Translations under genes and position numbers: made by a program
In this document: in pieces, positions 590 to 15,604 of the stretch
Numbering within the stretch: position 1 is the stretch's first letter
How the letters are laid out: every line of letters starts with the position of its first letter
The notes under the pieces: generated by a model
Seen by the model: the letters and a program-made list of their open reading frames with translations, nothing else
The model's database searches: none
Told to the model about the DNA's origin: nothing
Origin: Streptomyces radicis
Lineage (GTDB): Bacteria; Actinomycetota; Actinomycetes; Streptomycetales; Streptomycetaceae
Direction of reading: 5' to 3'
NCBI RefSeq assembly: GCF_003626575.1
Contig: NZ_RBDY01000032.1
Span: forward strand, 1-64,000
Length of the DNA stretch: 64,000 bases

Positions 590-1522
590 GTGCCCGACTC
601 ACTCGACCTGGTGCAGCTCCGCAGCTTCGTCGCCATCGCCGACTGCGGAGGATTCGGCCGCGCCGCGGCCGCGCTGCACCTCAGCCAGCCGACCGTCAGC
701 CAGCATGTGCGGCTGCTCGAGAAGCGGCTCGACGCCGAGCTGGTCCGCAGGGACGGGCGGCGCACCCGTTTCACCGACGCCGGGGAGCGGCTGCTGGTCG
801 AGGCCCGCCGCATCCTGTCCGTGCACGACCAGGCGCTCGAACGGCTGGACGCCGCCAGCCGGTCGCGGATCGTCATCGGCTCGGCGGAGACCGCGGCCGA
901 CCAGGTGCTGCCCGGGGTCCTGGCGCGGCTGCGGGCGGCGTTCCCGCACCATGGCGTGCAGTTCCACATCGACCGCTCGACGCAGATGACCGAGGCCGTG
1001 GCCCGGGGCACCATCGATCTGGCTGTGATCCTGAGCACTACCCCCGACACCCCGGGGCGCCGCGTCGGCTCCCTGCCGCTGGCCTGGTACGCCGCCCCCG
1101 GGTGGCAGCCTCCGGCGGGCGGCGAACGCTGGCCGCTCGTGGCCTATGTCGAGCCCTGCGGGATGCGGCAGCGCGCCCTGCACGAGCTGGCCGAGGCGGG
1201 CCTCACGGTCGACGTGGTCGCCGAGTCCACCAGCCTCGAGGGCGTGATGGGCGCCGCGCGGGCGGGCCTCGGAGTCGCCGTACTGCCGTCCGCGGGGCGG
1301 CTGTTGCCCGGGCTGGTCGAGCGGAACGACCTGCCGGACCTGGGGCTCGCGGGCGTGCACCTGACGGCCCGTCGGGGCCTCGACATCGACGTGGAGGCCG
1401 CCGCGCTCGCCGCGATGGAGGGCTTCTTCGCCGAGCTGCGCGGCACCGCCTCCGCCGACCTCGACGAGGTCGCCGAGGTCGCCGACGAGGTCGCGCCCCG
1501 GCTGGAGCACGACGGGCGCTGA
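590..1522 (+). CDS. LysR-family transcriptional regulator
   Basis: A 310-residue LysR-type regulator. The N-terminal winged helix-turn-helix covers about residues 5-65 (FGRAAAALHLSQPTVSQHVRL, then LVRRDGRRTRFT). A substrate-binding-like effector domain follows (IVIGSAETAADQ, then GVMGAARAGLGVAVLPS). The start is taken as GTG at 590 because the conserved family start begins within a few residues. An in-frame GTG at 611 is possible, and the open frame running back to 278 is probably not translated. The purine-rich GGGAGG touches the GTG, so initiation may be leaderless. It is co-oriented with the sulfur operon that follows and is the obvious candidate regulator, in the way CysB/Cbl-type LysR proteins control sulfonate genes elsewhere. 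The tail is acidic with repeated DEVAEVADEV. Confidence 0.85.
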   Translation: MPDSLDLVQLRSFVAIADCGGFGRAAAALHLSQPTVSQHVRLLEKRLDAELVRRDGRRTRFTDAGERLLVEARRILSVHDQALERLDAASRSRIVIGSAETAADQVLPGVLARLRAAFPHHGVQFHIDRSTQMTEAVARGTIDLAVILSTTPDTPGRRVGSLPLAWYAAPGWQPPAGGERWPLVAYVEPCGMRQRALHELAEAGLTVDVVAESTSLEGVMGAARAGLGVAVLPSAGRLLPGLVERNDLPDLGLAGVHLTARRGLDIDVEAAALAAMEGFFAELRGTASADLDEVAEVADEVAPRLEHDGR

Positions 1523-1560
1523 CCGCTCCGCGTCGGCCTTCCATCACCGCTCCCGATGGG

Positions 1561-1573
1561 TGTCCATCGGACA
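1561..1573. promoter_or_regulatory. Palindrome upstream of the leader promoter
   Basis: TGTCC-ATC-GGACA is a perfect 5-3-5 inverted repeat lying just upstream of the putative -35 box at 1580. The position fits an operator or activator site for the operon, perhaps for the LysR protein. LysR sites usually follow T-N11-A, which this only loosely resembles, so the assignment is weak. Confidence 0.35.
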
Positions 1574-1579
1574 TCGTTG

Positions 1580-1609
1580 TTGGACGCCCGCGCGGCCCCG
1601 TCCTAGGGT
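1580..1609 (+). promoter_or_regulatory. Promoter for a leaderless leader-peptide ORF
   Basis: TTGGAC (1580-1585) and TAGGGT (1604-1609) are separated by 18 bases and match actinobacterial housekeeping promoters (TTGAC / TAnnnT). Transcription would start about 7-8 bases after the -10 box, at the ATG of the small ORF at 1617. That predicts a leaderless mRNA. Confidence 0.6.
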
Positions 1610-1616
1610 GTTGGCC

Positions 1617-1721
1617 ATGACACGCACTCGAGGACACGTCCCAGGGCGACTGCCGCACGGCGCGCTGTCCTGCGCGGTCTCCGTGCCGCGATGTCCGTGT
1701 CGCTCCTGTCCGGCCTGTTGA
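1617..1721 (+). CDS. Cys-rich leader peptide (uORF)
   Basis: A 34-codon ORF (MTRTRGHVPG... then VPRCPCRSCPAC, stop). Five of its 34 codons are Cys, four of them in the last nine residues, with Cys the final codon before TGA. It lies directly after a promoter placed for leaderless transcription and ahead of the sulfurtransferase/monooxygenase operon. Cys-rich leaderless uORFs upstream of sulfur genes are known from mycobacteria (the Ms4527A/Ms5788A-type leader peptides). There, slow translation of Cys codons under cysteine shortage raises downstream expression. The same role is inferred here. No direct homology can be shown from sequence alone. The peptide itself probably has no function. Confidence 0.7.
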   Translation: MTRTRGHVPGRLPHGALSCAVSVPRCPCRSCPAC

Positions 1722-1727
1722 GCCGGT

Positions 1728-1744
1728 CCCCCGGTCGACGGGGG
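1728..1744 (+). promoter_or_regulatory. Hairpin just after the leader ORF
   Basis: CCCCCG (1728-1733) and CGGGGG (1739-1744) form a perfect 6-bp GC stem with a 5-base loop, starting 7 bases after the leader stop codon. A ribosome stalled on the terminal Cys codons would cover this region. It is therefore a candidate part of an attenuator, although no U-tract follows. Confidence 0.4.
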
Positions 1745-1961
1745 TCGTGACGGCCGAGGCCGCGCCGTTGGGCGGGCCACCCGGTGAACGCCCTGGCGCC
1801 GCACGGCGCCCGGCTCCCCCGCGCCGTCACGCGCTCCCCCTCGCCGCCACCCCGTAACCCGCTCGCCCTCCGCGCCGCCCCCTGGCCCGGTCGCGCCCGG
1901 CCGCCGCCGTGCCCGCGACCGCCACGGGGCGGGTGGTCACGCCTGTCCCAGGAGCACCGCC

Positions 1962-2885
1962 ATGCCCGTTCTCGTGTCCCCCGACGAACTCGCCGCCCTG
2001 CTCGCCGCCGACCCCCGCGTCCGGGTGCTCGACGTCCGCTGGTCGCTCGCCGCGCCCGATGGGCTGCCCGCCCATCGCGCGGGCCACATCCCGGGCGCCG
2101 TCCATGTCGATCTGGAGCGCGAGCTGTCCGCGCCCGCCACCCCCGGCGGCGGCCGCCACCCGCTGCCGCCGATCGCCGACCTCCGGCGCGCGGCCAGCCG
2201 TTGGGGCGTCGACGACGGCGACCCCGTGGTGGTCCACGACGACTCGGGAGGGCTCGCGGCGGCCCGCGCCTGGTGGCTGCTGCGCCACGCCGGGGTCGCC
2301 GATGTGCGGGTCCTCGACGGGGCGTTCGCCGCGTGGCGCGCCGCCGGGCTGCCGGTGGCCACGGGGGACGAGCCCGCGCCGCCGCCGGGGAACGTGCGGC
2401 TGTCCTACGGCCACCTCCCGGTGATCGACGCCGACGAGGCAGCGGCCCTGCCGGACCGTGGCACCCTGCTCGACGCGCGCGCCGCCGCCCGTTACCGGGG
2501 CGACGAGGAGCCGGTCGACCCCAGGGCCGGGCACATCCCCGGGGCGGTGAGCGCACCGGCCACCGACCACCTCGACCCGGCGGGCCGCTTCCGCTCCCCC
2601 GCCGAACTGCGCGTCCATTACGCGGCGTTGGGCGTGCGCGCGGACCGGCCCACGGCCGTCTACTGCGGATCGGGCGTGACCGCGGCGCACAGCGTGCTCG
2701 CGCTGGCCGTGGCCGGGGTCGATGCGGCGCTCTTCCCCGGCTCCTGGTCGGCGTGGTCCGCCGACCCCGCGCGCCCCGTCGCCACCGGCGCCTCGCCCCG
2801 GCCACCCGCGCCCACTGCGCCGCCCGCGCCGCCCGTTCCCCCCGCCTCCTCCCCCGCCGCCCCGACGACAGGAGCCCCGGCATGA
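1962..2885 (+). CDS. 3-mercaptopyruvate/thiosulfate sulfurtransferase
   Basis: A 307-residue two-domain rhodanese. The inactive N-terminal domain covers about residues 5-130 and the catalytic domain about 155-270. The active-site loop reads CGSGVTA with Cys at residue 235, the form typical of mercaptopyruvate sulfurtransferases such as E. coli SseA. A Pro/Ala-rich tail of about 35 residues follows. The start ATG has AGGAG upstream at about 1950. It overlaps the next gene by ATGA. It may move sulfane sulfur, or detoxify or recycle sulfur released by the downstream monooxygenases. The 240-base leader between the Cys-rich ORF and this gene holds no other convincing ORF. Confidence 0.9.
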   Translation: MPVLVSPDELAALLAADPRVRVLDVRWSLAAPDGLPAHRAGHIPGAVHVDLERELSAPATPGGGRHPLPPIADLRRAASRWGVDDGDPVVVHDDSGGLAAARAWWLLRHAGVADVRVLDGAFAAWRAAGLPVATGDEPAPPPGNVRLSYGHLPVIDADEAAALPDRGTLLDARAAARYRGDEEPVDPRAGHIPGAVSAPATDHLDPAGRFRSPAELRVHYAALGVRADRPTAVYCGSGVTAAHSVLALAVAGVDAALFPGSWSAWSADPARPVATGASPRPPAPTAPPAPPVPPASSPAAPTTGAPA

Positions 2886-4081
2886 CCGTCGAGTTCATCA
2901 GCGCCAGCTATGTGAACGACTCCACCGAACTCCATCCCCGCCCAGGGCAGGGCATCGACCGCTCCTTCCTGGTGCGCTACGCCCGCACGCTGGACGAGTA
3001 CGGCTTCGACTACACGCTGCTGCCCTACGGGTCCGCGGGCTACGACCCGTTCACCGTGGCCGCCGCCATCGCCCAACACACCGAGCGCGTACGCCCGTTG
3101 GTCGCGCTGCGGCCCAACACCGTCTATCCGACGGTCGCCGCCAAGGCGCTCGCCACCCTCGACCAGCTCAGCGGCGGCCGGGCCGCCGTGCACATCATCT
3201 CGGGCGGCGACGACCACGAGCAGGCCCGCGAGGGCGACCGGCTGCCGAAGGAGCGGCGCTACGCGCGGTCCGCCGAGTTCATCGAGATCCTGCGCAGGGC
3301 GTGGACCGCGGCCGAACCGTTCGACCACGCCGGGGAGTTCTACTCGTTCGAGGACTTCCGCGCCGAGTACCGCCCTGTGGCGGGCACCATCCCCGTCTCC
3401 GTCGGCGGCTCGTCGCCCGAGGCGTACCGGGTGGGTGGCGCGCTCGGCGACATCTTCGGGCTGTGGGGCGAGCCGCTGGCCGAGACGCGGCAGCAGATCG
3501 ACGCCGTCCACCGGGAGGCCGAACGCGCGGGCCGCGCCGACCGGCCCAGGATCTGGGTGACCTTCCGCCCGATCATCGCGCCCACCGAGGAGCTGGCCTG
3601 GGAGAAGGCGCACCGGGTGCTGGCCGCGCTGCGCCGCCCCGAGGCCAAGGACGCCATCGCCCGCTGGCCCCGGCGCGAGGGCCGCCCGCAGAACGTCGGG
3701 TCCCGGCGCCTGCTCGACATCGCCGACCGCGGCGAGCTGCACGACCGCGCCCTGTGGACCCCGGTCGCCACCGCGACCAACGCGCGCGGCGCCTCCACCG
3801 CGCTGGTCGGCACGCCCGAGACGGTGGCCGCCGCGATCCTCGACTACATCGATCTGGGCGCCGAGCTGATCTCGATCCGCGGCTACGACAACCTCGACGA
3901 CGCGATCGACTACGGGCGTTACGTCCTCCCCCTGGTCCGCCAGGAGCTGGACGCGCGCGCCAGGGGCGCGTCCCGGCTCGACGCCGGTCCGCCGGTGCCG
4001 CCCCCGGGATCCCCCTTCGCCGCCGGATCCGGAGCCACCGCGTCCGAGACCGCCAGGACCGAAGCCACCACCACCGCCTGA
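2882..4081 (+). CDS. SsuD-like FMNH2-dependent alkanesulfonate monooxygenase
   Basis: A 399-residue luciferase-like monooxygenase (LLM). It begins MTVEFISASYVND and contains LRPNTVYPTVAAKALATLDQ, then GGRAAVHIISGG and PVSVGGSSPEA, patterns of the SsuD branch (E. coli SsuD is about 380 residues). Such enzymes use reduced FMN and O2 to split sulfonates into sulfite and an aldehyde. The ATG overlaps the sulfurtransferase stop (ATGA), so translation is probably coupled. The last ~40 residues are a low-complexity Pro/Ala/Thr tail. Two flavin reductases at the end of the operon could supply FMNH2. The substrate is unknown. Confidence 0.85.
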   Translation: MTVEFISASYVNDSTELHPRPGQGIDRSFLVRYARTLDEYGFDYTLLPYGSAGYDPFTVAAAIAQHTERVRPLVALRPNTVYPTVAAKALATLDQLSGGRAAVHIISGGDDHEQAREGDRLPKERRYARSAEFIEILRRAWTAAEPFDHAGEFYSFEDFRAEYRPVAGTIPVSVGGSSPEAYRVGGALGDIFGLWGEPLAETRQQIDAVHREAERAGRADRPRIWVTFRPIIAPTEELAWEKAHRVLAALRRPEAKDAIARWPRREGRPQNVGSRRLLDIADRGELHDRALWTPVATATNARGASTALVGTPETVAAAILDYIDLGAELISIRGYDNLDDAIDYGRYVLPLVRQELDARARGASRLDAGPPVPPPGSPFAAGSGATASETARTEATTTA

Positions 4082-4118: not shown

Positions 4119-5753
4119 ATGCGTCCCCAGACCAGAACCGGGGCGGCCCGCCGCCCCCTCCGCCTGGCCACCGCCGCCGTCGCCCTGCCGCTGACCCTGC
4201 TCGCCACCGCGTGCGGCGGGACCGAGGCCGCGGGCGGCGGCGACGCGGGCGAGCCACGCCCGGGCGGAACCCTGGCCGTCGGCCTCAACACGAGCCTGGC
4301 CTGCGCCGACCCGCACCAGAACTCCTCGAACGTCACCATCTTCGTGGCCCGGCAGATAGCCGACTCGCTCACCGACCAGGACCCGGAGACGGGCGAGATC
4401 ACCCCGTGGCTCGCCGAGTCATGGGAGGTCTCCGAGTCCGCGGACTCCTACACGTTCCACCTGCGGGAGGGCGTGACGTTCGGCGACGGCACGCCGCTGA
4501 ACGCCGAAGCGGTCGCGGCCAACTTCGAGACGATCGCCGACCTCGGCCCCGGCGTCACGCCGTTGGCCTCCACCTACCTGGACGGCTACGCCGGGTCCGA
4601 GGTGGTGGACGAGCACACCGTCACGGTCACGTTCGACCACTCCAACGTGCAGTTCCTCCAGGGCACCGCCACCATCACGCTGGGCATCCTGGCGCCCGCC
4701 ACCCTGGAGCGCACGCCGGAGGAGCGGTGCGCGGGCGAGCTGATCGGGGCGGGCCCGTTCGTCATCGACGGCTACCAGCCCGAGCAGCGGATCACGCTGC
4801 AACGGCGCGACGGCTACGACTGGGCCTCCCCCGTGCTCGAGCACACCGGCGAGGCGTATGTGGAGACCGTCGACTTCGATGTGGTCCCCGAGGCCGGGGT
4901 GCGCGCCGGGCAGCTGCGCAACGGCGAGCTGCACATCGACACCATCCCGCTCACCGAGGACGTGCCCGGCTTCGAGGGCAACGGCTTCGGCGTCGTCGGC
5001 CGCCCCTACCCGGGCGTCGGCGTCAACCTCATCCCCAACCTGCGACGCCCGCTCGCCGGCGAGACCGCCGTGCGCCGGGCCATCCAACTCGGCGTCGACC
5101 GCGAGGAGATCGTCTCCGGCGTGCTGACCGAGTACGACCGGGTGGCGGAGAACGTGATCACCTCGGCCACGCCGTTCTTCGAACCCCTCGACGGCATCGC
5201 CCACGACCCCGGGCGGGCGGTCGAGCTGCTCGAGGACGACGGCTGGCTGCCGGGCGCCGACGGCGTGCGGGAGAAGGACGAGCAGCGCCTGGAGCTGCTC
5301 GCGCTCTACCACGCGGGGCGGCAGGCCGGGCCGATGATGGAGCTGGTCCAGTCGCAGCTGCGGGAGATCGGCATCGACCTCCAGATCAGGCTGCTCGCCC
5401 CCGCCGAGCTGGCCGACGCCGAGGCGAGCGGCGAGTGGGACCTGTGGTACTCGCCGTTCCACCGGGCCGAGGCGGACTCGGCGCGCGCGGTGTTCGGGTT
5501 CACCGGGCGCAACCAGAACCGGGTCGAGGAGGCCAGGCCGGTGGACGAGCTGCTCCAGGAGCAGTCGGGCGAGGCCGACCCCGAGCGGCGACAGGAGCTG
5601 ATCACCGAGGCCACCCAGGAGCTGGTGGACGAGGCGTACGCCATCCCGCTCTACGAGCTCGCGGGCGTGATGACGCACCGCGAGGGCGTCCAGGGCTTCC
5701 ACTTCGAGGCCAGCTCGCGGCTCAGCCTCTACGACGTCTGGCTCGACGAGTGA
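4119..5753 (+). CDS. ABC transporter solute-binding lipoprotein (peptide/nickel family 5)
   Basis: A 544-residue extracellular binding protein. The signal peptide ends in LLATAC with the lipid-modified Cys at residue 32, after a basic n-region. The mature protein has the family-5 pattern (PGGTLAVGLN, TDQDPETGEITPWLAESWEV, YTFHLREGVTFGDGTPL). The start at 4119 is preferred over 4095 because GAGGAAAG lies 4108-4115. It supplies the importer formed with the next three genes. Sulfonate importers are usually of another ABC type, so the substrate may be peptide-like or conjugate-like, for example an S-substituted amino acid. That is inference from context. Confidence 0.9.
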   Translation: MRPQTRTGAARRPLRLATAAVALPLTLLATACGGTEAAGGGDAGEPRPGGTLAVGLNTSLACADPHQNSSNVTIFVARQIADSLTDQDPETGEITPWLAESWEVSESADSYTFHLREGVTFGDGTPLNAEAVAANFETIADLGPGVTPLASTYLDGYAGSEVVDEHTVTVTFDHSNVQFLQGTATITLGILAPATLERTPEERCAGELIGAGPFVIDGYQPEQRITLQRRDGYDWASPVLEHTGEAYVETVDFDVVPEAGVRAGQLRNGELHIDTIPLTEDVPGFEGNGFGVVGRPYPGVGVNLIPNLRRPLAGETAVRRAIQLGVDREEIVSGVLTEYDRVAENVITSATPFFEPLDGIAHDPGRAVELLEDDGWLPGADGVREKDEQRLELLALYHAGRQAGPMMELVQSQLREIGIDLQIRLLAPAELADAEASGEWDLWYSPFHRAEADSARAVFGFTGRNQNRVEEARPVDELLQEQSGEADPERRQELITEATQELVDEAYAIPLYELAGVMTHREGVQGFHFEASSRLSLYDVWLDE

Positions 5754-5805
5754 CGCGCCCGCCGCGCCCGCCCCTCCGACCTGATCCGACCTGAGGACTC
5801 GACCC

Positions 5806-6750
5806 ATGGGGAAGTACCTCGCCTCGCGCGGCCTCCAGGCGCTGCTCGTGCTGCTCGGGACGTTCACGCTGGCCTTCGTGCTGCTGTCCGTGCTGCCGAG
5901 CGACGCGCTGTCCATCAAGCTCTCAGGGGCGGGGGACGCGGCGCTCAGCCCGGATGAGGTGGCCAGGCTGCGCGCGGAGCACGGCTACGACGACCCGCTC
6001 GTCGAGCAGTATCTGCGCCAGCTGGGCGGGCTGCTCGGCGGTGACCTGGGGACGTCGCTGCACACCGGCGCCCCGGTGCTGTCCATGCTGGGCAGCGCCC
6101 TGCCGCACACCGCCCAACTGGCGGGTCTCGCCCTGCTGTTCGGGGTGGTCGCCGGGCTGCTCGTGGGCAGCGTGGCCGCGCACACCCGTGGCCCGTGGGC
6201 CAGGGAGGCGCTGATGTCGCTGCCGCCGCTTGGGATCTCGTTCCCCACCTTCGCGGTGGGCCTGGTGCTGATCCAGGTGGTGGCGTTCCAGTGGCAGGCG
6301 CTGCCGTCGGGCGGCACGGACGGCTTCAGGAGCCTGGTCCTGCCCGCGATCACGCTGGCGCTTCCGGTCACCGCGACGGTGGCCCAGGTCTTCCACCGGA
6401 GCCTGCGCGAGGTGCTCGAACAGGGCTATGTGGACACCGCGGTCGCCAAGGGCGCGGGGCGGGCGCGGATCCACCTGGCGCACGCCACCCGCAACGCCGC
6501 GGGGCCCACGCTCACCGCGACCGCCGTGGTCGTCGGGAACCTGCTCGGCGGCGCGGTGGTGACCGAGACGGTCTTCTCCCGCGAGGGCGTCGGGCGACTC
6601 ACGGCCGACGCGGTCACCCGCCAGGACCTGCCCGTGGTGCAGGGCGTGGTGCTGCTCTCCGCGCTGGTCTTCGTCGTCGTCAACCTGCTCGTGGACCTCG
6701 CCTATCCCCTGCTCGACCGCCGCGTCACCGTCAAGGAGGCCGTCAGATGA
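5806..6750 (+). CDS. ABC transporter permease (DppB-like)
   Basis: A 314-residue inner-membrane permease of the dipeptide/oligopeptide class. The N-terminal helix (YLASRGLQALLVLLGTFTLAFVLLS) is followed by a long external loop and five further helices. The cytoplasmic coupling loop reads GYVDTAVAKGAG...RIHLAHATRNA. GAGGACTCGACCC precedes the ATG. It pairs with the next permease, which it overlaps by ATGA. Confidence 0.9.
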   Translation: MGKYLASRGLQALLVLLGTFTLAFVLLSVLPSDALSIKLSGAGDAALSPDEVARLRAEHGYDDPLVEQYLRQLGGLLGGDLGTSLHTGAPVLSMLGSALPHTAQLAGLALLFGVVAGLLVGSVAAHTRGPWAREALMSLPPLGISFPTFAVGLVLIQVVAFQWQALPSGGTDGFRSLVLPAITLALPVTATVAQVFHRSLREVLEQGYVDTAVAKGAGRARIHLAHATRNAAGPTLTATAVVVGNLLGGAVVTETVFSREGVGRLTADAVTRQDLPVVQGVVLLSALVFVVVNLLVDLAYPLLDRRVTVKEAVR

Positions 6751-7625
6751 CCAGCACCGAGACCGTCGCCGCCGAGGTGGCGGGCCCGGCCGCCGCCGGG
6801 CCCGCCAGGCGGCGGCGCGAGCCGCGCCGCCTCGGCCCCGGGGTGGTGCTCGCCCTGCTGGTGCTCGGGCTCGCGGTGCTCGCCGCGTTCGCCCCTGGGC
6901 TGCTGACGTCGCACTCGCCGACCAGCGACGACGTGCTCGACAAGCTGCGACCGCCCAGCGCCGAGCACTGGTTCGGCACCGACCAGCTGGGGCGCGACGT
7001 GTTCGCGCGGGTGGTGCACGGTGCGGGTCTTTCGCTGCGGGCGCCGCTCATCGCGGTGGCCATCGCGTTCGGCGTCGGCTCGACCGTCGGCCTGGTGTCC
7101 GGCTTCGTCGGCGGGGCCGTGGACGCCGTGCTCATGCGGCTGGTGGACATCCTGCTCGCGGTGCCCTCGCTGCTGCTCTCGCTGGCGATCGTCGCCGCGC
7201 TCGGCTTCGGGATCACCAACGTCGCGGTCGCCGTCGGCATCGCGTCGGTCGCGTCGTTCGCCCGGATCACCAGGGCCGAGGCGCTGCGGGTGCGGGCCTC
7301 GCCGTTCGTCGAGGCGGCCGTCGTGCTGGGGGTGCGCCGCCCCGTGGTGCTCGCGCGGCACGTGCTGCCGCACGCGATCGGGCCCGCCCTTGTGCTCTCC
7401 ACCCTGGAGTTCGGCACCGCGATCCTCTCGGTCTCGGCGCTGAGCTTCCTCGGCTACGGCGAACCGCCGCCGACCCCCGAGTGGGGCAAGATCGTCAGCG
7501 AGGGCCGGGACTATCTGGCCACCGCGTGGTGGGTCGCGCTGCTGCCCAGCCTGGTGATCGCGGCGACCGTGCTCGCCACCAACCGGGTCTCCCGCTGGCT
7601 CGACACCCAGGGGGCGGGGCGATGA
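6747..7625 (+). CDS. ABC transporter permease (DppC-like)
   Basis: A 292-residue permease, second membrane subunit of the importer. The N-terminal region after a charged stretch holds the first helix and the DppC-type motif HWFGTDQLGRDVFARVVHGA. The coupling motif is EALRVRASPFVEAAVVLGVR. It overlaps both neighbours by 4 bases (ATGA), which points to tight stoichiometric coupling with the DppB-like subunit and the ATPase. Confidence 0.9.
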   Translation: MTSTETVAAEVAGPAAAGPARRRREPRRLGPGVVLALLVLGLAVLAAFAPGLLTSHSPTSDDVLDKLRPPSAEHWFGTDQLGRDVFARVVHGAGLSLRAPLIAVAIAFGVGSTVGLVSGFVGGAVDAVLMRLVDILLAVPSLLLSLAIVAALGFGITNVAVAVGIASVASFARITRAEALRVRASPFVEAAVVLGVRRPVVLARHVLPHAIGPALVLSTLEFGTAILSVSALSFLGYGEPPPTPEWGKIVSEGRDYLATAWWVALLPSLVIAATVLATNRVSRWLDTQGAGR

Positions 7626-9946
7626 CCGCGCTGTCCGTGGGCGCGGAGCGGCACGCCGGGGAACGGGCCGACGCGGGGCCCCTGTTGGAGGTCTCCGACC
7701 TCACCGTCGCCTACCGGGTCGGCGGGGCCGAGCGCCCCGCGGTGCGCGGTCTCGGCCTGACCGTGCGCGCCGGGGAGACGGTCGCCGTCGTCGGCGAGTC
7801 GGGCTCGGGGAAGAGCACGCTCGCCCACACGGTCAACGGCATGCTGCCGGACAACGGCCGGGTGCTGGGCGGGCGGGTCCACTACGCGGGCCGCGATGTG
7901 CTCGGGCTCTCCAGGGCCGGGCTGCGCGCGCTGCGCGGCGCGGAGATCGCCCTCGTCCCGCAGGACCCCGGCACCTCGCTCAACCCCACCACCAGGGTCG
8001 GGCGGCAGGTCGCGGAGGCGCTGCGCATCCACCGCATCGCCGACCGGGCGACGGCGGCCGAGCGGGCGGTCGAGCTGCTGGAACGGGTCGGCATCGACCG
8101 CCCCGGGACCCGGGCGCGGCAGTTCCCGCACGAGCTGTCGGGCGGGATGCGGCAGCGGGTGCTCATCGCCATCGCCCTGGCGGCCGAGCCCCGGCTGCTG
8201 ATCGCCGACGAGCCGACCAGCGCGCTCGACGCCACCGTCAGCCGCCGGGTCCTCGACCACCTGGCGACGCTCCGCGCCGAGCGGGGCATCGCGCTGCTGC
8301 TGATCACCCACGACCTGGCCATGGCGGCCGAACGCGCCGACCGCATCGCGGTGTTGCGCGGCGGCCTGCTGGTCGAGGAGGGACCGGCGCGGCGGCTGGT
8401 CACCGACCCTGGCCACCCGTACACGCGGGAGCTGCTCGCCGACACCCCCAGCCTGCGCGGGCGACGGCTGGTCGCCGCGCGCGAACGGGCCCCGGACGCG
8501 GAAGCGGACGCGGACCCGGACCGGCCGCCGCTGCTGCGGGTGCGCGACCTCGTGAAGGACTTCGGGCGGGCGGCCGACGGCGGCGTCCCGCGCGCCGTCG
8601 ACGGCGTCGGCTTCGACCTGGCGCGGGGCCGAACGCTGGGCGTGCTCGGCGAGTCGGGCTCGGGCAAGACGACGACGGCCCGCATCCTGCTCGGCCTCGA
8701 ACGCCCCGACACCGGCAGCGTGCGGCTCGACGGCACCGAGCTGACCACGTTGAACGGCGCGGGGCTGCGCGCGGCGAGGCGCCGCCTCCAGATCGTCCAG
8801 CAGAATCCTTACGCCTCCCTCGACCCGCGGTTCACCGTGCGCCGGATCATCGACGAGCCGCTGCGCGCGCACCGGATCGGCGACCGGCGCGAACGCGCGG
8901 CGCGGGTCGCCGAGATGCTGGAGGCGGTCGCGCTGTCGCCCGAGCTGGCAGAGCGCCGCCCACGGGAGCTGTCGGGCGGGCAGCGGCAGCGGGTGGCCAT
9001 CGCCCGCGCCCTGGTGCTGCGGCCCGACGTGGTGGTCTGCGACGAGCCGGTGTCCGCGCTCGACGTGACCGTCCAGGCCCAGATCCTCGACCTGCTGACG
9101 CGGCTCCAGCGGGAGCTCGGCATCGCCTATGTCTTCATCTCCCACGACCTGGCCGTGGTGCGGCAGATCTCGGACGACGTGATGGTGATGCGCGGCGGCG
9201 CGGTCCTCGAACACGGCCCCGCCGACGAGCTGTTCGAACGCCCGCGGCACCCGTACACCCGCGAGCTGCTCGCCTCGGTGGCCGCGCCCTTCCCCCTGGA
9301 CGACCCTGACGGCCCCGACGCCCCCTGGCCGCACGAGTCCGAGTCCCCCGAGACCCCGAAGGAGGCCACGATGCCCCCGACCGACACCGTTCACCTGGCC
9401 GAACTCCTGCCCGGCGCCGACCCGTCGGCGCCCTCCTGGCCCGCGCTGCGCGACGCCGTCACCGACGCCGAGGCGCGGGGCGTCACCACGCTCGTGCTGC
9501 CCGCGCCGGGGCCCACCGCCGCGCCTGTCGAGGCGACCACGGTGGCCGCCGCCGTGCTGCGGGCCACGGCCGCGCTGCGCGTGGTGGTGCCGTTCGACCC
9601 CGAGCGGGTCGCGCCCTACAACGCGGCCAGGGTGCTCGGCACGCTCGCCTACCTCGGCCCCGACCGCGTGCTGGTGACCCCGGCCGCGCCACCGGACGGG
9701 CAGCGGGACGAGGACGGGGACCGCTGGGCCGACTGGCTCGCGGCGGTCCTGGCGCTGTGGGAGAGCTTCCCGCGCGCGGCGATCGTCGCCGACCGCGCCA
9801 CAGGGCGTTACTTCGACGCCGGGCGGCTCGACCGGCGCGGCCACCGCGGCCCCCACCACACGGTGGCGGGCCCGCTCAACCTGCCGAGGCCGCCGGGCGA
9901 CGCGCCGCGCGTCTGGCCCGACGAGAGGACGGAGACCCCCCGATGA
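7622..9946 (+). CDS. Double ABC ATPase running in frame into a half LLM domain
   Basis: A 774-codon open frame. Residues 20-280 and 303-560 are two ABC ATPase domains of the DppD/DppF type. The Walker A motifs are GESGSGKST (58-66) and GESGSGKTT (343-351). The signatures are LSGGM (172-176) and LSGGQ (450-454), and both Walker B motifs are present. The frame then continues without a stop into about 190 residues resembling the first half of a luciferase-like monooxygenase. An ATG at codon 584 (9371) sits behind a textbook AAGGAGG (9359-9365, spacing 5). The tail could therefore be translated as part of a fusion, separately, or both. Fused DppD-DppF proteins are common in actinomycetes. The monooxygenase extension is not something I know of. 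Confidence 0.85.
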   Translation: MTALSVGAERHAGERADAGPLLEVSDLTVAYRVGGAERPAVRGLGLTVRAGETVAVVGESGSGKSTLAHTVNGMLPDNGRVLGGRVHYAGRDVLGLSRAGLRALRGAEIALVPQDPGTSLNPTTRVGRQVAEALRIHRIADRATAAERAVELLERVGIDRPGTRARQFPHELSGGMRQRVLIAIALAAEPRLLIADEPTSALDATVSRRVLDHLATLRAERGIALLLITHDLAMAAERADRIAVLRGGLLVEEGPARRLVTDPGHPYTRELLADTPSLRGRRLVAARERAPDAEADADPDRPPLLRVRDLVKDFGRAADGGVPRAVDGVGFDLARGRTLGVLGESGSGKTTTARILLGLERPDTGSVRLDGTELTTLNGAGLRAARRRLQIVQQNPYASLDPRFTVRRIIDEPLRAHRIGDRRERAARVAEMLEAVALSPELAERRPRELSGGQRQRVAIARALVLRPDVVVCDEPVSALDVTVQAQILDLLTRLQRELGIAYVFISHDLAVVRQISDDVMVMRGGAVLEHGPADELFERPRHPYTRELLASVAAPFPLDDPDGPDAPWPHESESPETPKEATMPPTDTVHLAELLPGADPSAPSWPALRDAVTDAEARGVTTLVLPAPGPTAAPVEATTVAAAVLRATAALRVVVPFDPERVAPYNAARVLGTLAYLGPDRVLVTPAAPPDGQRDEDGDRWADWLAAVLALWESFPRAAIVADRATGRYFDAGRLDRRGHRGPHHTVAGPLNLPRPPGDAPRVWPDERTETPR
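9371..9946 (+). CDS. Possible internal ORF: truncated LLM-like protein
   Basis: A 191-residue product if translated from the internal ATG at 9371, which has AAGGAGG five bases upstream. The middle reads like a degraded monooxygenase barrel (AAAVLRATAALRVVVPFDPE, then YNAARVLGTLAYLGPDRV). The end carries the family insertion (LWESFP, VADRATGRYFD, HHTVAGPLNLPRPP) seen in NtaA/SnaA-type enzymes, and stops where the remaining barrel should begin. The active-site residues of a full enzyme are mostly absent. It could be a regulatory or partner subunit, or a remnant. It overlaps the following LLM gene by ATGA. Confidence 0.5.
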   Translation: MPPTDTVHLAELLPGADPSAPSWPALRDAVTDAEARGVTTLVLPAPGPTAAPVEATTVAAAVLRATAALRVVVPFDPERVAPYNAARVLGTLAYLGPDRVLVTPAAPPDGQRDEDGDRWADWLAAVLALWESFPRAAIVADRATGRYFDAGRLDRRGHRGPHHTVAGPLNLPRPPGDAPRVWPDERTETPR

Positions 9947-11211
9947 CCGCCGACGACCGGCAGCGCCTGATGCATCTGAGCCTGAACCTCAGCGGCGTCG
10001 GGCGGCACACCGCCGCCTGGACGCACCCGGCGAGCGTGCCGGGCGCCGAGCTGGACGTGGACCACTTCGTCCAGGTCGCGCGGGTCGCCGAGGAGGGCCT
10101 GTTCGACGCGGTGTTCCTCGCCGACTCCCCGGCGCTGACCCCCGGCGAGCGCGGCGTTCCGCACCGCTTCGAGCCGTTGACGCTGCTGACCGCGATCGCC
10201 GTGGCGACCGGGCGGATCGGGCTCATCGGCACCGTCTCGACCACCTACAACGACCCGCTCACCGTCGCCGACCGCGCCCGCTCGCTCCACACGCTCAGCG
10301 CGGGGCGGGCCGCGATCAACGCGGTGGCCTCCGCGGGTGACCGGATCGCCGCCAACTTCGGCCTGGCCGCGCAGCCCAGCCACGGGGAGCGGTACGCCAG
10401 GGCCGAGGCGTTCCTCACCGCCGTCGAGGAGCGCTGGGCGCAGGCGCCGCCGACGGGGCAGGGGCGGCCGCTGATCGTGCAGGCGGGCGGCTCGTCCCGG
10501 GGCCGCGACCTGGCGGCCCGGCACGCCGACGTCGTCTACGCGGGCGGGTATGGGATCGACGACGCGCTGGCGCTGGACGCCGACATCCGGGCCAGGGCGG
10601 TGCGGCAGGGGCGCGCCGCCAGGTCGTTGCGGGTGCTGCCCGGCGTGATCCCCTACCTCGCCGACACCACCGCCGAGGCGCACCGGCTCGCCGACCGGCT
10701 CGACGCGGTCCAGCGCGGCGTCATCGACCCGATCGCCTGGCTCGGGCCCGTGGTCGGCGCCGACCTCACCGGGCACGACCCGGATGGGCCGCTGCCCACC
10801 GAGGCGCTGCCCACCGACCCCGACAAGCTCTCCGGCGCCAGCCTCGCCGGGCTCGCCCGCACCCTGGGCGAACGGGAGGGGCTGACCGTCCGGGGGATCG
10901 CCGAGCGGCTGCACGCCGGGGGGTTCGGCAACATCCAGACGCATGTGCACGGCACGGCCGATGAGATCGCGGGGCGGCTGATCGCGTGGTTCAGGCGGGG
11001 CGTGGACGGCTTCAACCTGCTGCTGCCGCTGCAACCCTCGGGCGTGGAGCGTTTCGTGGCCGAGGTGGTGCCGCTGCTCCAGCGCGCGGGCGTGTACCGC
11101 ACGGGGTACGAGGCGGAGACGCTGGCCGGGCACCTCGGGCTGACCGCGGGCGACGCCGGGGACACCGGGGACGCCGTGCTCGCCGGGCCGACGCCGGGGA
11201 GGGCCTCGTGA
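9943..11211 (+). CDS. NtaA/SnaA-type flavin-dependent monooxygenase
   Basis: A 422-residue luciferase-like monooxygenase of the nitrilotriacetate/DszA branch. It contains FLADSPALTP, FEPLTLLTAIAVATGRIGLI, STTYNDPLTVADRARSLHTLSAGRAAINAV and later LIVQAGGSSRGRDLAARHAD, with C-terminal LPLQPSGVERFVAEVVPLLQ. Between ERYARAEAFLTAVEERW and GQGRPLIVQAG it lacks about 40 residues normally present in this family. That segment does occur in the preceding truncated domain. A product of the operon flavin reductases would drive it. The substrate is unknown, though C-S or N-side-chain cleavage is typical of the family. Confidence 0.85.
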   Translation: MTADDRQRLMHLSLNLSGVGRHTAAWTHPASVPGAELDVDHFVQVARVAEEGLFDAVFLADSPALTPGERGVPHRFEPLTLLTAIAVATGRIGLIGTVSTTYNDPLTVADRARSLHTLSAGRAAINAVASAGDRIAANFGLAAQPSHGERYARAEAFLTAVEERWAQAPPTGQGRPLIVQAGGSSRGRDLAARHADVVYAGGYGIDDALALDADIRARAVRQGRAARSLRVLPGVIPYLADTTAEAHRLADRLDAVQRGVIDPIAWLGPVVGADLTGHDPDGPLPTEALPTDPDKLSGASLAGLARTLGEREGLTVRGIAERLHAGGFGNIQTHVHGTADEIAGRLIAWFRRGVDGFNLLLPLQPSGVERFVAEVVPLLQRAGVYRTGYEAETLAGHLGLTAGDAGDTGDAVLAGPTPGRAS

Positions 11212-12281
11212 CGCGCTATGTGGTGATCGGCGCGGGGGCGGTGGGTGGCGCGCTCGCCGCCGACCTCCAGCTGGCGGGCATACCCGTGGTGTTGGCCGCC
11301 AGGGGCGCCGCGCTCGCGGCCATCGAGGACCGGGGGCTGATCCGGATCACCCCCGCGGGGCGGCGGACGGTGCGGCTGCGCGTGGTCGGCGGCCCCGAAG
11401 CGATCGAGCTGACCCCGCGCGACGCGCTGGTCCTCGCGGTCAAGACGCAGGACGCGCGGGACACCCTCGCCGCCTGGGCCTGGCGCCCCGTCGTCGACGG
11501 CGGGCGGACGGTGGGCGCCGCCTCGGGGCTGCCGCTCTTCACCCTTCAGAACGGCCTTGACGCCGAACGCGTCGCCGCCCGCCACTTCCGCACGGTGCAC
11601 GGCACGACCGTGCTGGTCCCCGCGCGCCATCTGGTGCCGGGTGAGGTGCTGACCGGCTCGGCGCCGCGGACCGGCCAGCTCGTCGTCGGCGGCCTGCCCC
11701 ACCCCGCGCCGCCCGGCGAGCCGGGGCCCGCGGCGGTCCGTTTCGCCGAGGACGCCGAGGCCGCGGGCTGGGTGGGCAGGACCGTGCCCGAGATCTCCCG
11801 CTGGAAGGCGTGGAAGCTGCTGATGAACGTCACCAACGCCGTGGAGGTGTTCGCCGGGCCCGCCGACGAGTCGGCCGCGGTGAAGCGGGATGCCGCCGCC
11901 GAGGCCGCCGCCGCGCTCGCCGCCGCCGGGTACCGGGTCGCCGACCCGGCGGCCGAGGGCTTCCCCGACCCCGCGCTGACGCGCGTCGTGCCGGGCGCGG
12001 GCTATGTGCCGGGGCAGCAGTCCACATGGCAGAGCTTCGCGCGCGGCGCGTCGAGCGAAGTCGACTTCCTCAACGGCGAGATCGTCCTCATCGGCCGCCT
12101 GCACGGCGTGCCGACCCCGGTCAACGAGGCGTTGCAGCAGCTGCTCGCCGCCTCCGCGGCCGCCGGGGAGCCGCCGGGCACCCGGCGCGTCGCCGAGGTC
12201 ACCGCGCTCGCCGCCGAGCTCGCCCGACGCGCCGACCCCACCCACGCCATCGCGCACACGACGGGAAACCCAGCGACATGA
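11208..12281 (+). CDS. Ketopantoate reductase-like NADP-dependent oxidoreductase (ApbA/PanE family)
   Basis: A 357-residue protein with an N-terminal Rossmann motif (YVVIGAGAVGGALAADL) and the ApbA C-terminal helical domain (WKAWKLLMNVTNAVEVF, then SSEVDFLNGEIVLIGR...PTPVNEAL). The GTG start overlaps the LLM stop (GTGA). True PanE works in pantothenate synthesis. In this catabolic operon a paralogue reducing or oxidising a 2-hydroxy/2-oxo acid product is more likely, an inference from location. Confidence 0.85.
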   Translation: MTRYVVIGAGAVGGALAADLQLAGIPVVLAARGAALAAIEDRGLIRITPAGRRTVRLRVVGGPEAIELTPRDALVLAVKTQDARDTLAAWAWRPVVDGGRTVGAASGLPLFTLQNGLDAERVAARHFRTVHGTTVLVPARHLVPGEVLTGSAPRTGQLVVGGLPHPAPPGEPGPAAVRFAEDAEAAGWVGRTVPEISRWKAWKLLMNVTNAVEVFAGPADESAAVKRDAAAEAAAALAAAGYRVADPAAEGFPDPALTRVVPGAGYVPGQQSTWQSFARGASSEVDFLNGEIVLIGRLHGVPTPVNEALQQLLAASAAAGEPPGTRRVAEVTALAAELARRADPTHAIAHTTGNPAT

Positions 12282-13054
12282 CCTCCGTTGACCACACGCC
12301 CGACCCCACCACGCCCGAACGCACCACCTCCGAACGCACCGCGTCCTGGCGCGAGCCCGACGGAATCGCCCCGCGCGGCACCCTCGTCGTGCTCGCGGGC
12401 CCGGGCGAGACCGCCGCCGTGTACCGGCGCTTCGGCGCCCGACTCGCCGCCGACGCCTACCGCGTGGTGGCCGTGCCCGCCGACGCCGCGGACGCCGAGG
12501 AGGCGGCCGAGGAGGCCCTGGCCGCCGCCCTCGCCGACCCGGACACGCCGAGGCCGCTCGTGCTGGTCGGCTCCGACACGGGGGCGGCCCGCGCGCTGCG
12601 GCTGGCCCGTCGGCACGCCGACGCGGTGGACGGGGTGGTGCTCGCCGGGCTGCCCACCCGCGAGGCCACCAGGGCCGACGCCCCCGAGGCCGGGCTCGAC
12701 GAGCGCACCGCCTGTCCCAACCACCGCCTGGTCCTCACCCGTGAGGGCGCCCTCGACCGCGGGGCCGCGCCGCCCGAACCGCTCGCCGACACCGAGCCGT
12801 TGAGGCTTCCGCTGCTCGCGGTGCACGGCGGCGCCGACCGGATCAGCCCTCCCGAGGAGGCGCTGCCCCGTTACCGCGCGCTGGGCGCGGCGCCGCTCGT
12901 CACCGTCAGGGGCGGGCTGCACGACATCCTCAACGACGTCACCCACCGCTCGGTGGCCGCCACCGTGGTCCTCTTCCTCGAACGGCTCAGGCTTGGCGCC
13001 GAACTCCCCCCGATCGTCGAGGAGTTCATCGAGCCGACGGCGCCGGGCGCATGA
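12278..13054 (+). CDS. Alpha/beta hydrolase with Asp nucleophile
   Basis: A 258-residue alpha/beta hydrolase. The oxyanion region is LAGPGE (about 40-44). The nucleophile elbow reads GSDTG with Asp at residue 100 where most esterases have Ser. The acid is probably D187 (HGGADRI) and the base H215 (GGLHDIL). An Asp nucleophile is typical of haloalkane/haloacetate dehalogenases and epoxide hydrolases, so dehalogenation or epoxide opening is possible. The gene overlaps both neighbours (ATGA). The N-terminal 30 residues are Thr/Pro-rich and unconserved in appearance. Confidence 0.75.
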   Translation: MTSVDHTPDPTTPERTTSERTASWREPDGIAPRGTLVVLAGPGETAAVYRRFGARLAADAYRVVAVPADAADAEEAAEEALAAALADPDTPRPLVLVGSDTGAARALRLARRHADAVDGVVLAGLPTREATRADAPEAGLDERTACPNHRLVLTREGALDRGAAPPEPLADTEPLRLPLLAVHGGADRISPPEEALPRYRALGAAPLVTVRGGLHDILNDVTHRSVAATVVLFLERLRLGAELPPIVEEFIEPTAPGA

Positions 13055-14421
13055 CCGGGGGTGCCGTCGCGCGGGCGGGCGAGCTGGCCGCGCTGGCCCG
13101 GGCGGTGCGCCCTGGGGCGCTCTCGACCGACCCCGGCGACCGCGCCCGCGTCGCGGTGGATCGCTCGGGCCACCGCCAAGAAGGGCTGCCGCTCGCCGTG
13201 GTGCGGGCCGGGGCGGTCGACGACGTGGTGGCCACCGTGCGCTGGGCCGCCGCCCACCGGGTGCCGGTGGTGCCGAGGGGCGCGGGCACCGGGCTCGCGG
13301 GCGGTGCGACGGCGGGCGCGGGGAGCGTGGTGCTCGACCTCGGCGGCATGGACCGGATCCTGGCGATCCACCCGGGCGACGGCATCGCCGAGGTCGAGCC
13401 CGGGGTGATCACCGCCGAACTCGACCGCGCGGCACGGGAGGTGGGGCTGCGTTACACCCCCGACCCGGCCAGCGCCGCGCTGTCCACGGTGGGCGGGAAC
13501 ATCGCCACCAACGCGGGCGGCCTGCACTGCGTGAAGTACGGCGTGACCCGGGACGCCGTGCTGGCCCTCGACCTGGTGCTCGCCGACGGCACCCTGCTGC
13601 GCACGGGACGCAGGACCGTCAAGGGCGTGGCGGGCTACGACCTGACCTCGCTCGTCACCGGCTCCGAGGGAACGCTCGCCGTGGTCGTGGGCGCCACGCT
13701 GCGGCTGCACCCGCTCCCGGCCGCGACCGGCACGGCGGCCGCGTACTTCGCCTCCCCCGAGGAGGCGGCGGCCGCCTGCGCCGCGGTGCTCGACGCCGGG
13801 CTGCGGCCCAGCGTGCTCGAGTTCCTCGACGCCCGCACGCTCGGGGCGATCCACCGGGCGGGCGGCGAAGTCCCCGCGACGGGCGAGACGTTCGTGCTGG
13901 CCAGGACCGACGGGTTCGCCGCGGCGGCGGAGATCGAGGCGGTGCACGCCGTGCTCCGCCGCACCGCCACCCGCGCCGAGTACACCGGCGACCCCGCCGC
14001 GGCCGACCGGCTGCTCGCCGTCCGCCGCGCGGCCCTGCCCGCCGTCGAACGCCTCGGCCGGGTGCTGATCGAGGACATCGCCGTGCCCCGCTCCCGGCTC
14101 GCCGAGGCGGCCGGTGCGCTGACCGCGCTCGCCGACCGCACGGGGGTGCCCGTCTTCACCTTCGCCCACGCGGGCGAGGGCAACATCCACCCCCTCGTGC
14201 TGGCCGGTGGTCAGGACCCGGCGGCCGTGCGGGAGACGGTGGACGAGGTCTTCAGGCTGGCGCTGCGCCTCGGCGGCACCATCACCGGGGAACATGGCGT
14301 GGGCACCCTCAAACGCGCCTGGCTCGACGCCGAGTTGGGGCCCGCGGCACGAAGTCTGCACGTGAGGATCAAGCAGGCGCTCGACCCGCTGGGCATCCTC
14401 AACCCGGGGAAGGCCATCTGA
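13051..14421 (+). CDS. FAD-linked oxidase, GlcD/D-lactate dehydrogenase type
   Basis: A 456-residue flavoprotein. The N-terminal PCMH-type FAD domain contains VVPRGAGTGLAGGATAG and STVGGNIATNAGG, then GSEGTLAVVVGATLRLHP. The C-terminal substrate domain has the metal-binding TFAHAGEGNIHP and TGEHGVGTLKRAWL, ending LDPLGILNPGKAI. This pattern is diagnostic of glycolate oxidase GlcD, D-lactate and related 2-hydroxyacid dehydrogenases. Here it could oxidise a hydroxy acid formed after desulfonation. It overlaps the hydrolase gene (ATGA) and is followed by a 56-base gap. Confidence 0.9.
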   Translation: MTGGAVARAGELAALARAVRPGALSTDPGDRARVAVDRSGHRQEGLPLAVVRAGAVDDVVATVRWAAAHRVPVVPRGAGTGLAGGATAGAGSVVLDLGGMDRILAIHPGDGIAEVEPGVITAELDRAAREVGLRYTPDPASAALSTVGGNIATNAGGLHCVKYGVTRDAVLALDLVLADGTLLRTGRRTVKGVAGYDLTSLVTGSEGTLAVVVGATLRLHPLPAATGTAAAYFASPEEAAAACAAVLDAGLRPSVLEFLDARTLGAIHRAGGEVPATGETFVLARTDGFAAAAEIEAVHAVLRRTATRAEYTGDPAAADRLLAVRRAALPAVERLGRVLIEDIAVPRSRLAEAAGALTALADRTGVPVFTFAHAGEGNIHPLVLAGGQDPAAVRETVDEVFRLALRLGGTITGEHGVGTLKRAWLDAELGPAARSLHVRIKQALDPLGILNPGKAI

Positions 14422-14477
14422 ACCGACTCGCCCGCCCGCACCACCGCCACCGTCCGTGTCACCGAGAGGAAGTCCCC

Positions 14478-15056
14478 TTGTCCACCGAGACCACCGAGAC
14501 CACCGAGACGTCGGCGAACCCGCACATCGTCGCGCTCTCCGGCAACCCGCGCCCCGGCTCCCGCACCTCCGCCCTGGCCGAGGAGGTGGCCGACGCGCTC
14601 GCCCGCGAGGCGCTCCCCGGCGCCGCGGTGACCACCGTCGACCTGGCGGAGTTCGCCCCCGAGATCCTGGCGCCCGAGCACCCGGCCGCTGACGCGGCCC
14701 TGGCCACGCTCGCCGCGGCGCGGATCGCCGTGGTCGCCACCCCGGTCTACAAGGCGTCCTACACCGGGCTGTTGAAGGCGTTCCTCGACCTCTACCCCGC
14801 CAACGGGCTGCTCGGCGTGGTCGCGGTGCCGCTCGTGGTCTCGGGCGGCCCCGCGCACGCCCTGGCCGGTGAGGTCCATCTCAGGCCGCTGCTGGTGGAG
14901 TTGGGGGCGACGGTGCCCACCAGGAGCCTGGTCGTCACGGAGGCGACGCTCGCCGAGCCCGCGCCGGTCGTCGCCGACTGGCTCGCCACGGCGGGCCCCG
15001 CGCTGGCCCGCGCGGCGGGCGTCACCGGCGTGGCCGGTGCGGAGGCGCGGCGATGA
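14478..15056 (+). CDS. NAD(P)H-dependent FMN reductase (SsuE/MsuE-like)
   Basis: A 192-residue flavodoxin-fold reductase (IVALSGNPRPGSRTSAL near the N-terminus, then VVATPVYKASYTGLLKAFLDL). It would deliver reduced FMN to the operon's monooxygenases, as SsuE does for SsuD. I chose TTG at 14478 because GAGAGGA (14464-14470) lies seven bases upstream and no in-frame ATG/GTG is closer. The first residues are a 9-base tandem repeat (14484-14510) coding for Thr-Glu-Thr units. Confidence 0.85.
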   Translation: MSTETTETTETSANPHIVALSGNPRPGSRTSALAEEVADALAREALPGAAVTTVDLAEFAPEILAPEHPAADAALATLAAARIAVVATPVYKASYTGLLKAFLDLYPANGLLGVVAVPLVVSGGPAHALAGEVHLRPLLVELGATVPTRSLVVTEATLAEPAPVVADWLATAGPALARAAGVTGVAGAEARR

Positions 15057-15604
15057 CGGCGGAGCCGACCGGGGCCGATCGCCTCACCGGCCATCTCACC
15101 GGCGAGGAGTACAAGGCCGTCTTCCGGCGGCACCCCGCGGGGGTGGCCGTGGTCGCCATGACGCACCGGGGGCGCCCCGTCGGGTTCACGGCCACGTCCG
15201 TCATCTCCGTCTCCGCCGAACCACCCCTGCTGGCCTTCTCGTTGGCCGACACATCGTCCTGCGCGCCCGCCGTCGTCGCCGCCGAGACGGTGACGGTGAG
15301 CCTGCTCGCCGAGCACCAGGACGACGTCTCGGCCCGCTTCGCCACCAGCGGCGTGGACCGTTTCGCGGCCGGTGGCTGGTCCACGCTGCCGACGGGCGAG
15401 CCGGTGATCGACGGGGCACACGCCTGGATCCGCGCCCGCGTCCTCGAACGCACGCCGGTGGGCAGCAGCTTCCTGGTCTCGCTCCTGGCCCTCGAGGCCG
15501 AGTGGCACCCCGAGGCGGCGCCGCTGGTCTTCCAGGACCGCGCCTACCACCGGCTGGCCCGACGGTTCAGTGCCGGTGCGGGCGGTACTGCTTCGGAAGC
15601 GTGA
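15053..15604 (+). CDS. Flavin reductase domain protein (HpaC-like)
   Basis: A 183-residue flavin reductase of the split-barrel type. It has FRRHPAGVAVVAM, the family motif GFTATSVISVSAEPPLLAFSL, and a C-terminal DRAYHRL. It probably supplies reduced flavin to a monooxygenase, making two different flavin reductases in one operon. The ATG overlaps the FMN reductase stop. Its last 38 bases overlap the convergent phosphodiesterase gene. Confidence 0.85.
   Translation: MTAEPTGADRLTGHLTGEEYKAVFRRHPAGVAVVAMTHRGRPVGFTATSVISVSAEPPLLAFSLADTSSCAPAVVAAETVTVSLLAEHQDDVSARFATSGVDRFAAGGWSTLPTGEPVIDGAHAWIRARVLERTPVGSSFLVSLLALEAEWHPEAAPLVFQDRAYHRLARRFSAGAGGTASEA

Follow-up and report, generated by a model that had tools for sequence, protein, structure and literature searches.

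The operon of Streptomyces radicis that opens with a rhodanese gene and continues with genes for a SsuD-like monooxygenase and an importer appears, by analogy with described Cys leaders, to be controlled by a leaderless, cysteine-responsive, ribosome-mediated attenuator, a reading to which we assign a probability of about 85%. The candidate lies in the window, by which we mean the whole stretch of DNA that was analyzed, positions 1 to 64,000 of the forward strand of contig NZ_RBDY01000032.1 (assembly GCF_003626575.1). It is a 34-codon ORF encoding MTRTRGHVPGRLPHGALSCAVSVPRCPCRSCPAC, which runs from the ATG at 1617 to a TGT-TGA end at 1721, and its last nine residues, CPCRSCPAC, include four Cys. 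The sequence thus bears out what the first-pass annotation had described, a 34-codon ORF with four Cys in the last nine residues and a Cys-stop end, and its overall reading of the ORF as a leader is likewise supported by the comparisons below. The ORF is very probably a real, conserved leaderless Cys leader (Table 1), while its mechanism is proposed by analogy.

In the proposed mechanism, a LysR-type activator would probably switch the promoter on, and the mRNA would begin at the AUG, as the promoter spacing suggests, such that a ribosome could start immediately. With ample Cys-tRNA, the ribosome would get to the stop codon and depart, exposing the long C-rich spacer; transcription would then end early, probably through Rho, or the rhodanese start site would remain hidden. 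In a cysteine shortage, the ribosome would stall at the UGU codons beside the stop and the operon would be read.

Table 1. Features of the candidate leader and its surroundings, in window positions
Feature	Position	Strand	Basis or remark
LysR-type regulator gene (start inferred as GTG 590)	590..1522	+	Pfam HTH_1 2.6e-21, LysR_substrate 2.9e-25 on 602-1519
Palindrome CCGATGG-gtgt-CCATCGG, putative LysR-type operator	1553..1570	.	sequence; just upstream of the -35
-35 TTGGAC	1580..1585	+	sequence; exact in 27/28 aligned promoters, themselves chosen via a TTGGAC-like pattern
-10 TAGGGT, 7 nt before ATG	1604..1609	+	sequence; identical in L020 and L021
Leaderless Cys leader ORF (candidate)	1617..1721	+	sequence, gene order in relatives, scans, alignment, shuffles
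Sensor Cys cluster of the leader	1692..1718	+	TGT at 1692, 1698, 1707, 1716
GCTCCTG, 7-base complement of the rhodanese ribosome-binding site	1702..1708	+	minimum-free-energy fold, pairing calculation
GC hairpin CCCCCG-gtcga-CGGGGG	1728..1744	+	6 bases after stop; unconserved, ordinary against shuffles
C-rich, G-poor spacer stretch, candidate Rho-loading region	1811..1888	+	C-G skew 0.48
Rhodanese ribosome-binding site CAGGAGC	1949..1955	+	sequence; CTGGAGC in L020, CAGGAGC in L021
Rhodanese (sulfurtransferase), first structural gene	1962..2885	+	Pfam Rhodanese 1.6e-31; NF008557 1.8e-40, under its cut-off
SsuD-like luciferase-type flavin monooxygenase	2882..4081	+	Bac_luciferase 1.7e-72; TIGR03565 9.4e-58, under its cut-off
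Peptide/nickel-type ABC importer: binding protein, two permeases, double ATPase (end of last gene uncertain)	4119..9946	+	
Probable operon remainder	9943..15604	+	second LLM monooxygenase, ApbA-like reductase, hydrolase, FAD-linked oxidase, FMN reductase, flavin reductase

Leader, promoter and operon

Among the ATG or GTG ORFs of 8-60 codons in the window (464 starts on the + strand and 577 on the - strand), the leader alone reached four or more Cys within the final nine residues, and each of 20 Markov shuffles of the window gave 0 such ends. All four clustered Cys codons are TGT; the one earlier Cys, at 1671, is TGC.

The promoter consists of TTGGAC, 18 bases, TAGGGT and 7 bases before the ATG. 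These coordinates match those of the first-pass annotation, which had read the spacing to the ATG as of the leaderless type, and the spacing is kept in relatives. For S. lividans, the -10 element is given as TAnnnT, at a mean of 6.3 nt from the start site, with 17% of transcripts leaderless (PMC8079986, cited here, like the other papers marked "in part", from part of its text), so that the layout in the window is compatible with a leaderless start. A generic sigma-70 scan, which wants a closer match to E. coli than the Streptomyces TAnnnT, found no site in 1500-2000. With up to three mismatches, a 40-base promoter-plus-ATG pattern derived from the window site itself occurred once in the window; shuffles contained it 0.25 times on average, and at least once in 21 of 100, so the promoter by itself is weak evidence. 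Such an expectation, about 0.25 per window, is what speaks for a chance ORF behind a chance promoter, with the true start of the operon elsewhere. This explanation has next to no chance of being correct, as the promoter, ATG, frame and Cys cluster are kept in orthologues and the scans described below recover similar ORFs; together these argue strongly against a chance ORF.

Upstream of the -35 lies a palindrome, for the most part kept in the promoters of relatives, that is probably the site of the neighboring LysR-type regulator. Its GAT and AT fall in common columns in 20 of the 28 aligned promoters, and GAT-N7..9-AT is found within the palindrome stretch in 24 of the 28. The conserved palindrome and the adjoining LysR gene, whose place and strand are unchanged in two close orthologous loci (L020 and L021), suggest a double control, with a LysR activator acting at the promoter and cysteine governing read-through. 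In an Aeromicrobium MAG (L028, 1-285), the same TTGGAC promoter precedes the monooxygenase gene with no Cys leader seen between them, which makes this locus a natural one to compare.

Behind the leader, the genes from rhodanese through flavin reductase (to 15604) would form one transcript, and those linked to sulfur or cysteine, i.e., the rhodanese, the SsuD-like monooxygenase and the flavin reductases, are co-directional with it. The first-pass annotation spoke of a sulfonate-type operon. The SsuD-like, importer and flavin reductase genes that it named are present, but the importer is of the peptide/nickel type, and a rhodanese gene comes first. The binding protein is of the SBP_bac_5 kind (Opp/Nik-type), and the SsuABC-type importer required for a SsuEADCB sulfonate operon is not present. 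A natural guess for the substrate is therefore an organosulfur compound taken up via this Opp/Nik-type system. Pfam gives no match for 9379-9943, a segment translated in frame with the double ATPase; it might be a small gene of its own with which the long ORF ends.

Recurrence of Cys leaders in relatives

Ten of 99 other genomes carried the SsuD-like monooxygenase, in 11 loci with E no higher than 1e-120 and 54-61% identity, and the window-type leader was absent within the 1.5-kb flanks of these loci; one of them, L015, has a different Cys leader of the HIDL type. A GTDB genome scan with the monooxygenase gave 374 relatives, and the best 80 loci were used. Only two close orthologues of the window leader were found among these best 80 of 374, namely in Streptomyces sp. 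NBRC 109706 (L020, 91%) and S. avicenniae (L021, 86%), with the leader peptides MTRSQGQAAGHPPLGGGLPCAFLAPRCPCQPCPAR and MTRSEGHTDGLRPHRVLPGAGPAPRCRCRPCPVR, respectively. Both keep the order LysR-leader-rhodanese-monooxygenase-binding protein-permease, and both have TAGGGT-7-ATG as in the window. The three-way alignment shows conservation of the promoter, the initial codons and the PRCxCxxCP end, and little of it across the middle of the peptide; there is one 3-nt gap within the leader, and gaps of 1 to 38 nt occur in the spacer. A Cys cluster ahead of the same genes in other actinomycetes, the comparison that the first-pass annotation had suggested, was thus found in these two orthologues as well as in the following scans.

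A strict scan for TANNNT, 5-8 nt, and an ATG or GTG ORF of 8-60 codons with at least three Cys in the last 10 covered both strands of 821,161 bases, made up of the best 80 loci of the 374 and the initial 11 kb of the window. It returned 10 ORFs, nine of them immediately ahead of a gene for rhodanese or monooxygenase (the one in L033 sits between these genes), and five shuffles gave 1, 0, 0, 0 and 0. The tenth ORF, MTTTTTTAGAPRLVVVPCAAASRGCAACCLGC, is a downstream, second Cys leader in the Cellulomonas massiliensis locus (L022, 7402-7500; TACGGT-7-ATG).

A wider scan, which asked for a TTGGAC-like -35 and at least two Cys in the last 8, gave 41 matches in 40 of 81 sources (the 80 loci and the window), every one on the operon strand; ten shuffles gave 1 match in total. 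Apart from the window, the sources with a match comprised 25 of the 47 loci L020-L066 and 14 of 14 in L067-L080, while 41 of the 81 sources had none, including all 19 of the more distant loci L081-L099. Not every one of the 41 has the monooxygenase or rhodanese gene as its immediate neighbor; the Frankia leaders, for example, lie 1.3-1.5 kb upstream. Both scan patterns were chosen once the first leaders were known, and the loci are related to one another. In L034, L042 and L055 (Protofrankia and Frankia), the leaders, likewise 1.3-1.5 kb ahead of the monooxygenase gene, have 50-55 codons, with an LTRRRVxDF-SxCC-type end after a long N-terminal part. When 15 upstream regions were read by eye, two more Cys-ended ORFs (in L051 and, of the VVDF type, in L023) could be seen, and none in L028, L049, L061 and L063. 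In the genome of S. radicis itself, the TTGGAC-type pattern had seven matches, with a Cys leader at the window site alone.

Codon choice and known leader families

The Cys codons of these leaders differ from those of the genes that they precede. In 33 leaders, i.e., the 41 matches minus eight near-identical Streptomyces ones (L069, L071, L073-L075, L077, L078 and L080), TGT accounts for 72 of 97 Cys codons (TGC for 25), against 9 of 148 (TGC 139) among the genes of the corresponding operons (Fisher p 4e-30, a value that overstates independence because the scan patterns were fixed only after the first leaders were known and the loci are interrelated). Every one of the 33 has at least one TGT. 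Since TGT dominates while the non-Cys codons of the leaders stay at 82% G/C in the third position, the leader Cys codons themselves seem to be under selection. The window conforms to this, with TGT at 12 of 116 Cys codons in its 37 predicted genes and at four of five in the leader. In these GC-rich genomes, UGU is read by wobble by a single tRNA-Cys with the anticodon GCA.

This codon pattern bears on the possibility that the ORF product acts by itself as a small Cys-rich peptide, either metal-binding or the precursor of a modified peptide. The density of Cys, four in nine residues, and the flavin enzymes and peptide-type importer encoded downstream would suit such a role. However, peptides from the same place share little except Cys (RCRCRP, CCCR, GCSCPA, ACRCSC), and the leader has no match in Pfam or NCBIfam. 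What recurs is the TGT codon, which protein function does not need, and a metal-binding or RiPP-type product is very improbable because it is the codon and not the peptide that is kept. As a cause of UGU, RNA pairing was considered and is not favored on the sequences at hand, because C in place of U would give pairing no weaker and the Cys codons are variably spaced.

The window leader has no NCBIfam match, with NF042933 and NF042936 absent at E up to 1; the L020 and L021 leaders likewise match no NCBIfam Cys-leader model (NF042933 none at E up to 10), and NF042934 gave no HMM match for any of the three. Pfam gave no match for the leaders tried, and the Rfam search of window 1400-2100 returned two matches only, both to microRNA families and far under thresholds. 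Among the other leaders, matches under the cut-offs were seen to Ms4527A (L093 and L087) and to Ms5788A (L042).

The family NF042934 ("putative leader peptide", cis_reg_atten, of Streptomyces and relatives) was matched in 60 of 61 genomes searched, the own genome included, 59 of them over the cut-off, and Cys leaders are therefore not confined to mycobacteria. S. radicis itself has 12 matches (L182-L193), eight over the cut-off. Six of the next genes were tested, and five gave family matches, all under curated cut-offs and two of them from sequences cut at 330 residues: SsuC-type (L183), SsuA-family (L185), SsuD-type (L190), DctA-type symporter (L193) and a mercaptopyruvate-sulfurtransferase-type rhodanese (L186), which we take to be CysA2-like, cysA2 being a rhodanese gene. 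The sixth, behind L187, had no family match. An NF042934-type leader at C23:12587 belongs to the genome's second SsuD-like gene (C23:12983). With 12 such matches in its genome, several before sulfur genes, the window leader seems to be part of a genome-wide set of Cys leaders. It resembles the NF042934 leaders in being short, in the TGT of its sensor Cys and in the sulfur genes that several of them precede, but lacks their R-H-VDL-R-SA[IL]C motif.

The same codon preference is found in these unrelated leaders. Of 30 NF042934 leaders fetched, 25 were parsed (L111, L122, L125 and L135 were read separately and L114 is unread); the Cys after SA[IL] or GA[IL] is TGT in 25 of 25, the earlier Cys is TGC in 10 of 10, and all Cys of the 25 together are TGT in 29 cases and TGC in 21. 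The sensor Cys is TGT in all 12 matches of the own genome. In the family of Rhodococcus jostii, 48 of 61 genomes had an Ms5788A match, three over the cut-off; 30 leaders fetched have TGT at 76 and TGC at 53 of 129 C-terminal Cys codons, against TGT 25 and TGC 154 (n=179) in the genes compared, and their VDLC-type Cys is TGC in 25 and TGT in 5. We lean toward the view that actinobacterial Cys leaders encode the regulatory Cys by the rare UGU and the upstream Cys mostly by UGC, and that this choice unites otherwise unrelated leaders and heightens the sensitivity of the stall to the supply of cysteine. The Rhodobacterales cysS leader mostly uses UGC instead (PMC8632094, in part), and Cys codons are said to reduce the G/C skew of such sORFs (PMC9094748, in part). 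The portions covered of PMC8632094, PMC13236596, PMC1262725, PMC9031893 and PMC9094748 hold no statement of a UGU bias, which may be in print.

The likeness to mycobacterial Cys leaders drawn in the first-pass annotation is apt, as one of these precedes cysA2 (PMC4633059, in part). The window leader shares with such polycysteine leaders (Ms5788A/cysA2, NF042933) a C-terminal Cys cluster with TGT-rich terminal codons, a rhodanese as first structural gene and, by its promoter spacing, probably the leaderless start. Unlike them, it lacks the RR-VDLC part, has a spaced CxCxxCxxC in place of a CCC run, and is followed by a 240-nt C-rich spacer and an operon with SsuD-like and importer genes. The actinobacterial candidates of Seliverstov et al. 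2005 (PMC1262725, in part) also have Cys codons beside the stop and no intrinsic terminator, with Rho suggested, but belong to cys operons of Mycobacterium and Propionibacterium and to cbs of Bifidobacterium. A further parallel is the S. lividans metL leader before metNIQ (PMC8079986, in part), which is leaderless and has a spaced Cys cluster end, CMCRRMC; it is read there as a Met leader, and its operon differs. Its end in Table 4 of that paper, CMCRRMCAF, has three Cys, and metL could sense cysteine, not methionine.

From leader to operon expression

How a stalled ribosome would act on the operon can be approached from the RNA behind the leader. The first-pass annotation had placed a GC hairpin 7 bases after the stop; the hairpin is present at a distance of 6, but a functional role for it does not follow. 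A classical attenuator with this hairpin as its intrinsic terminator would draw on the presence of a 6-pair GC hairpin at 1728-1744. No terminator-like site (a hairpin with a U-run) was found in window 1500-2000, however, the 40 nt after the stop are no more stably folded than shuffled sequence (z +0.29), and the alignment shows the hairpin to be missing in L020 and L021, all of which makes such a terminator most unlikely. Across 26 leaders, the 40 nt behind the stop had a mean z of -0.64, with 11 of 26 under -1.

The spacers give a hint of Rho, as they are C-rich. Behind the leaders, their mean C-G skew is 0.26 (n=18), against 0.04 in 58 control upstream regions (p 5e-7, likewise overstating independence), the controls being defined by crude gene calls and 23 of the 58 coming from the window. 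The spacer of L059 is an exception (skew 0.03), and that of the window ranks second of 26 upstream regions in the window. Seliverstov et al. proposed Rho for the mycobacterial cys leaders from polyY motifs, with their own verdict of "rather weak" (PMC1262725, in part).

Alternatively, the leader may sense cysteine with a purely translational output, in which RNA of the Cys codons pairs with the rhodanese ribosome-binding site and so conceals it until a ribosome stalls, without Rho. In Mycobacterium smegmatis, Cys-codon RNA reportedly masks a ribosome-binding site that a stalled ribosome releases. Mycobacterial Cys leaders have been described as translation attenuators (PMC13236596, in part), and in the window the complement at 1702-1708 is perfect; masking the Cys codons raised the computed openness of the site from 0.22 to 0.37-0.38. 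When other parts of the window leader are masked, openness also rises, to about 0.3, and in the alignment both L020 and L021 lack the complement. In the pairing calculation (18 rows, with L022 and L050 set aside for a wrong gene start), the site paired chiefly with the leader in just two of 16 usable leader regions, the window and L033; folding thus showed no structure shared by the leaders, and masking as a conserved feature was accordingly rejected. Nor does the 346-nt leader-spacer RNA as a whole fold better than shuffles (z -0.69). An output by translation alone is possible, if somewhat against the odds. Because the masking pairing and the post-stop folds are unconserved or ordinary while the spacers are C-rich and G-poor, we slightly favor Rho-dependent attenuation as the output step of the cysteine-responsive attenuator.

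The type of switch, a cysteine leader, is known; what looks new is this example of a leader and operon and its rare-codon Cys signature. The cysteine-responsive leaders proposed here would extend to an organosulfur-scavenging operon, with a leader that is unrecognized by any NCBIfam model, and such leaders can be found via promoter spacing and terminal Cys codons, without peptide similarity. The C-rich spacers make the older idea of Rho-dependent cysteine attenuation in Actinobacteria directly testable. The UGU bias leads to a simple prediction, namely that the synonym used determines how sensitively an amino-acid sensor responds, even though one tRNA reads both codons. If this is true, the UGU signature would allow unrelated actinobacterial Cys leaders to be found as one class.
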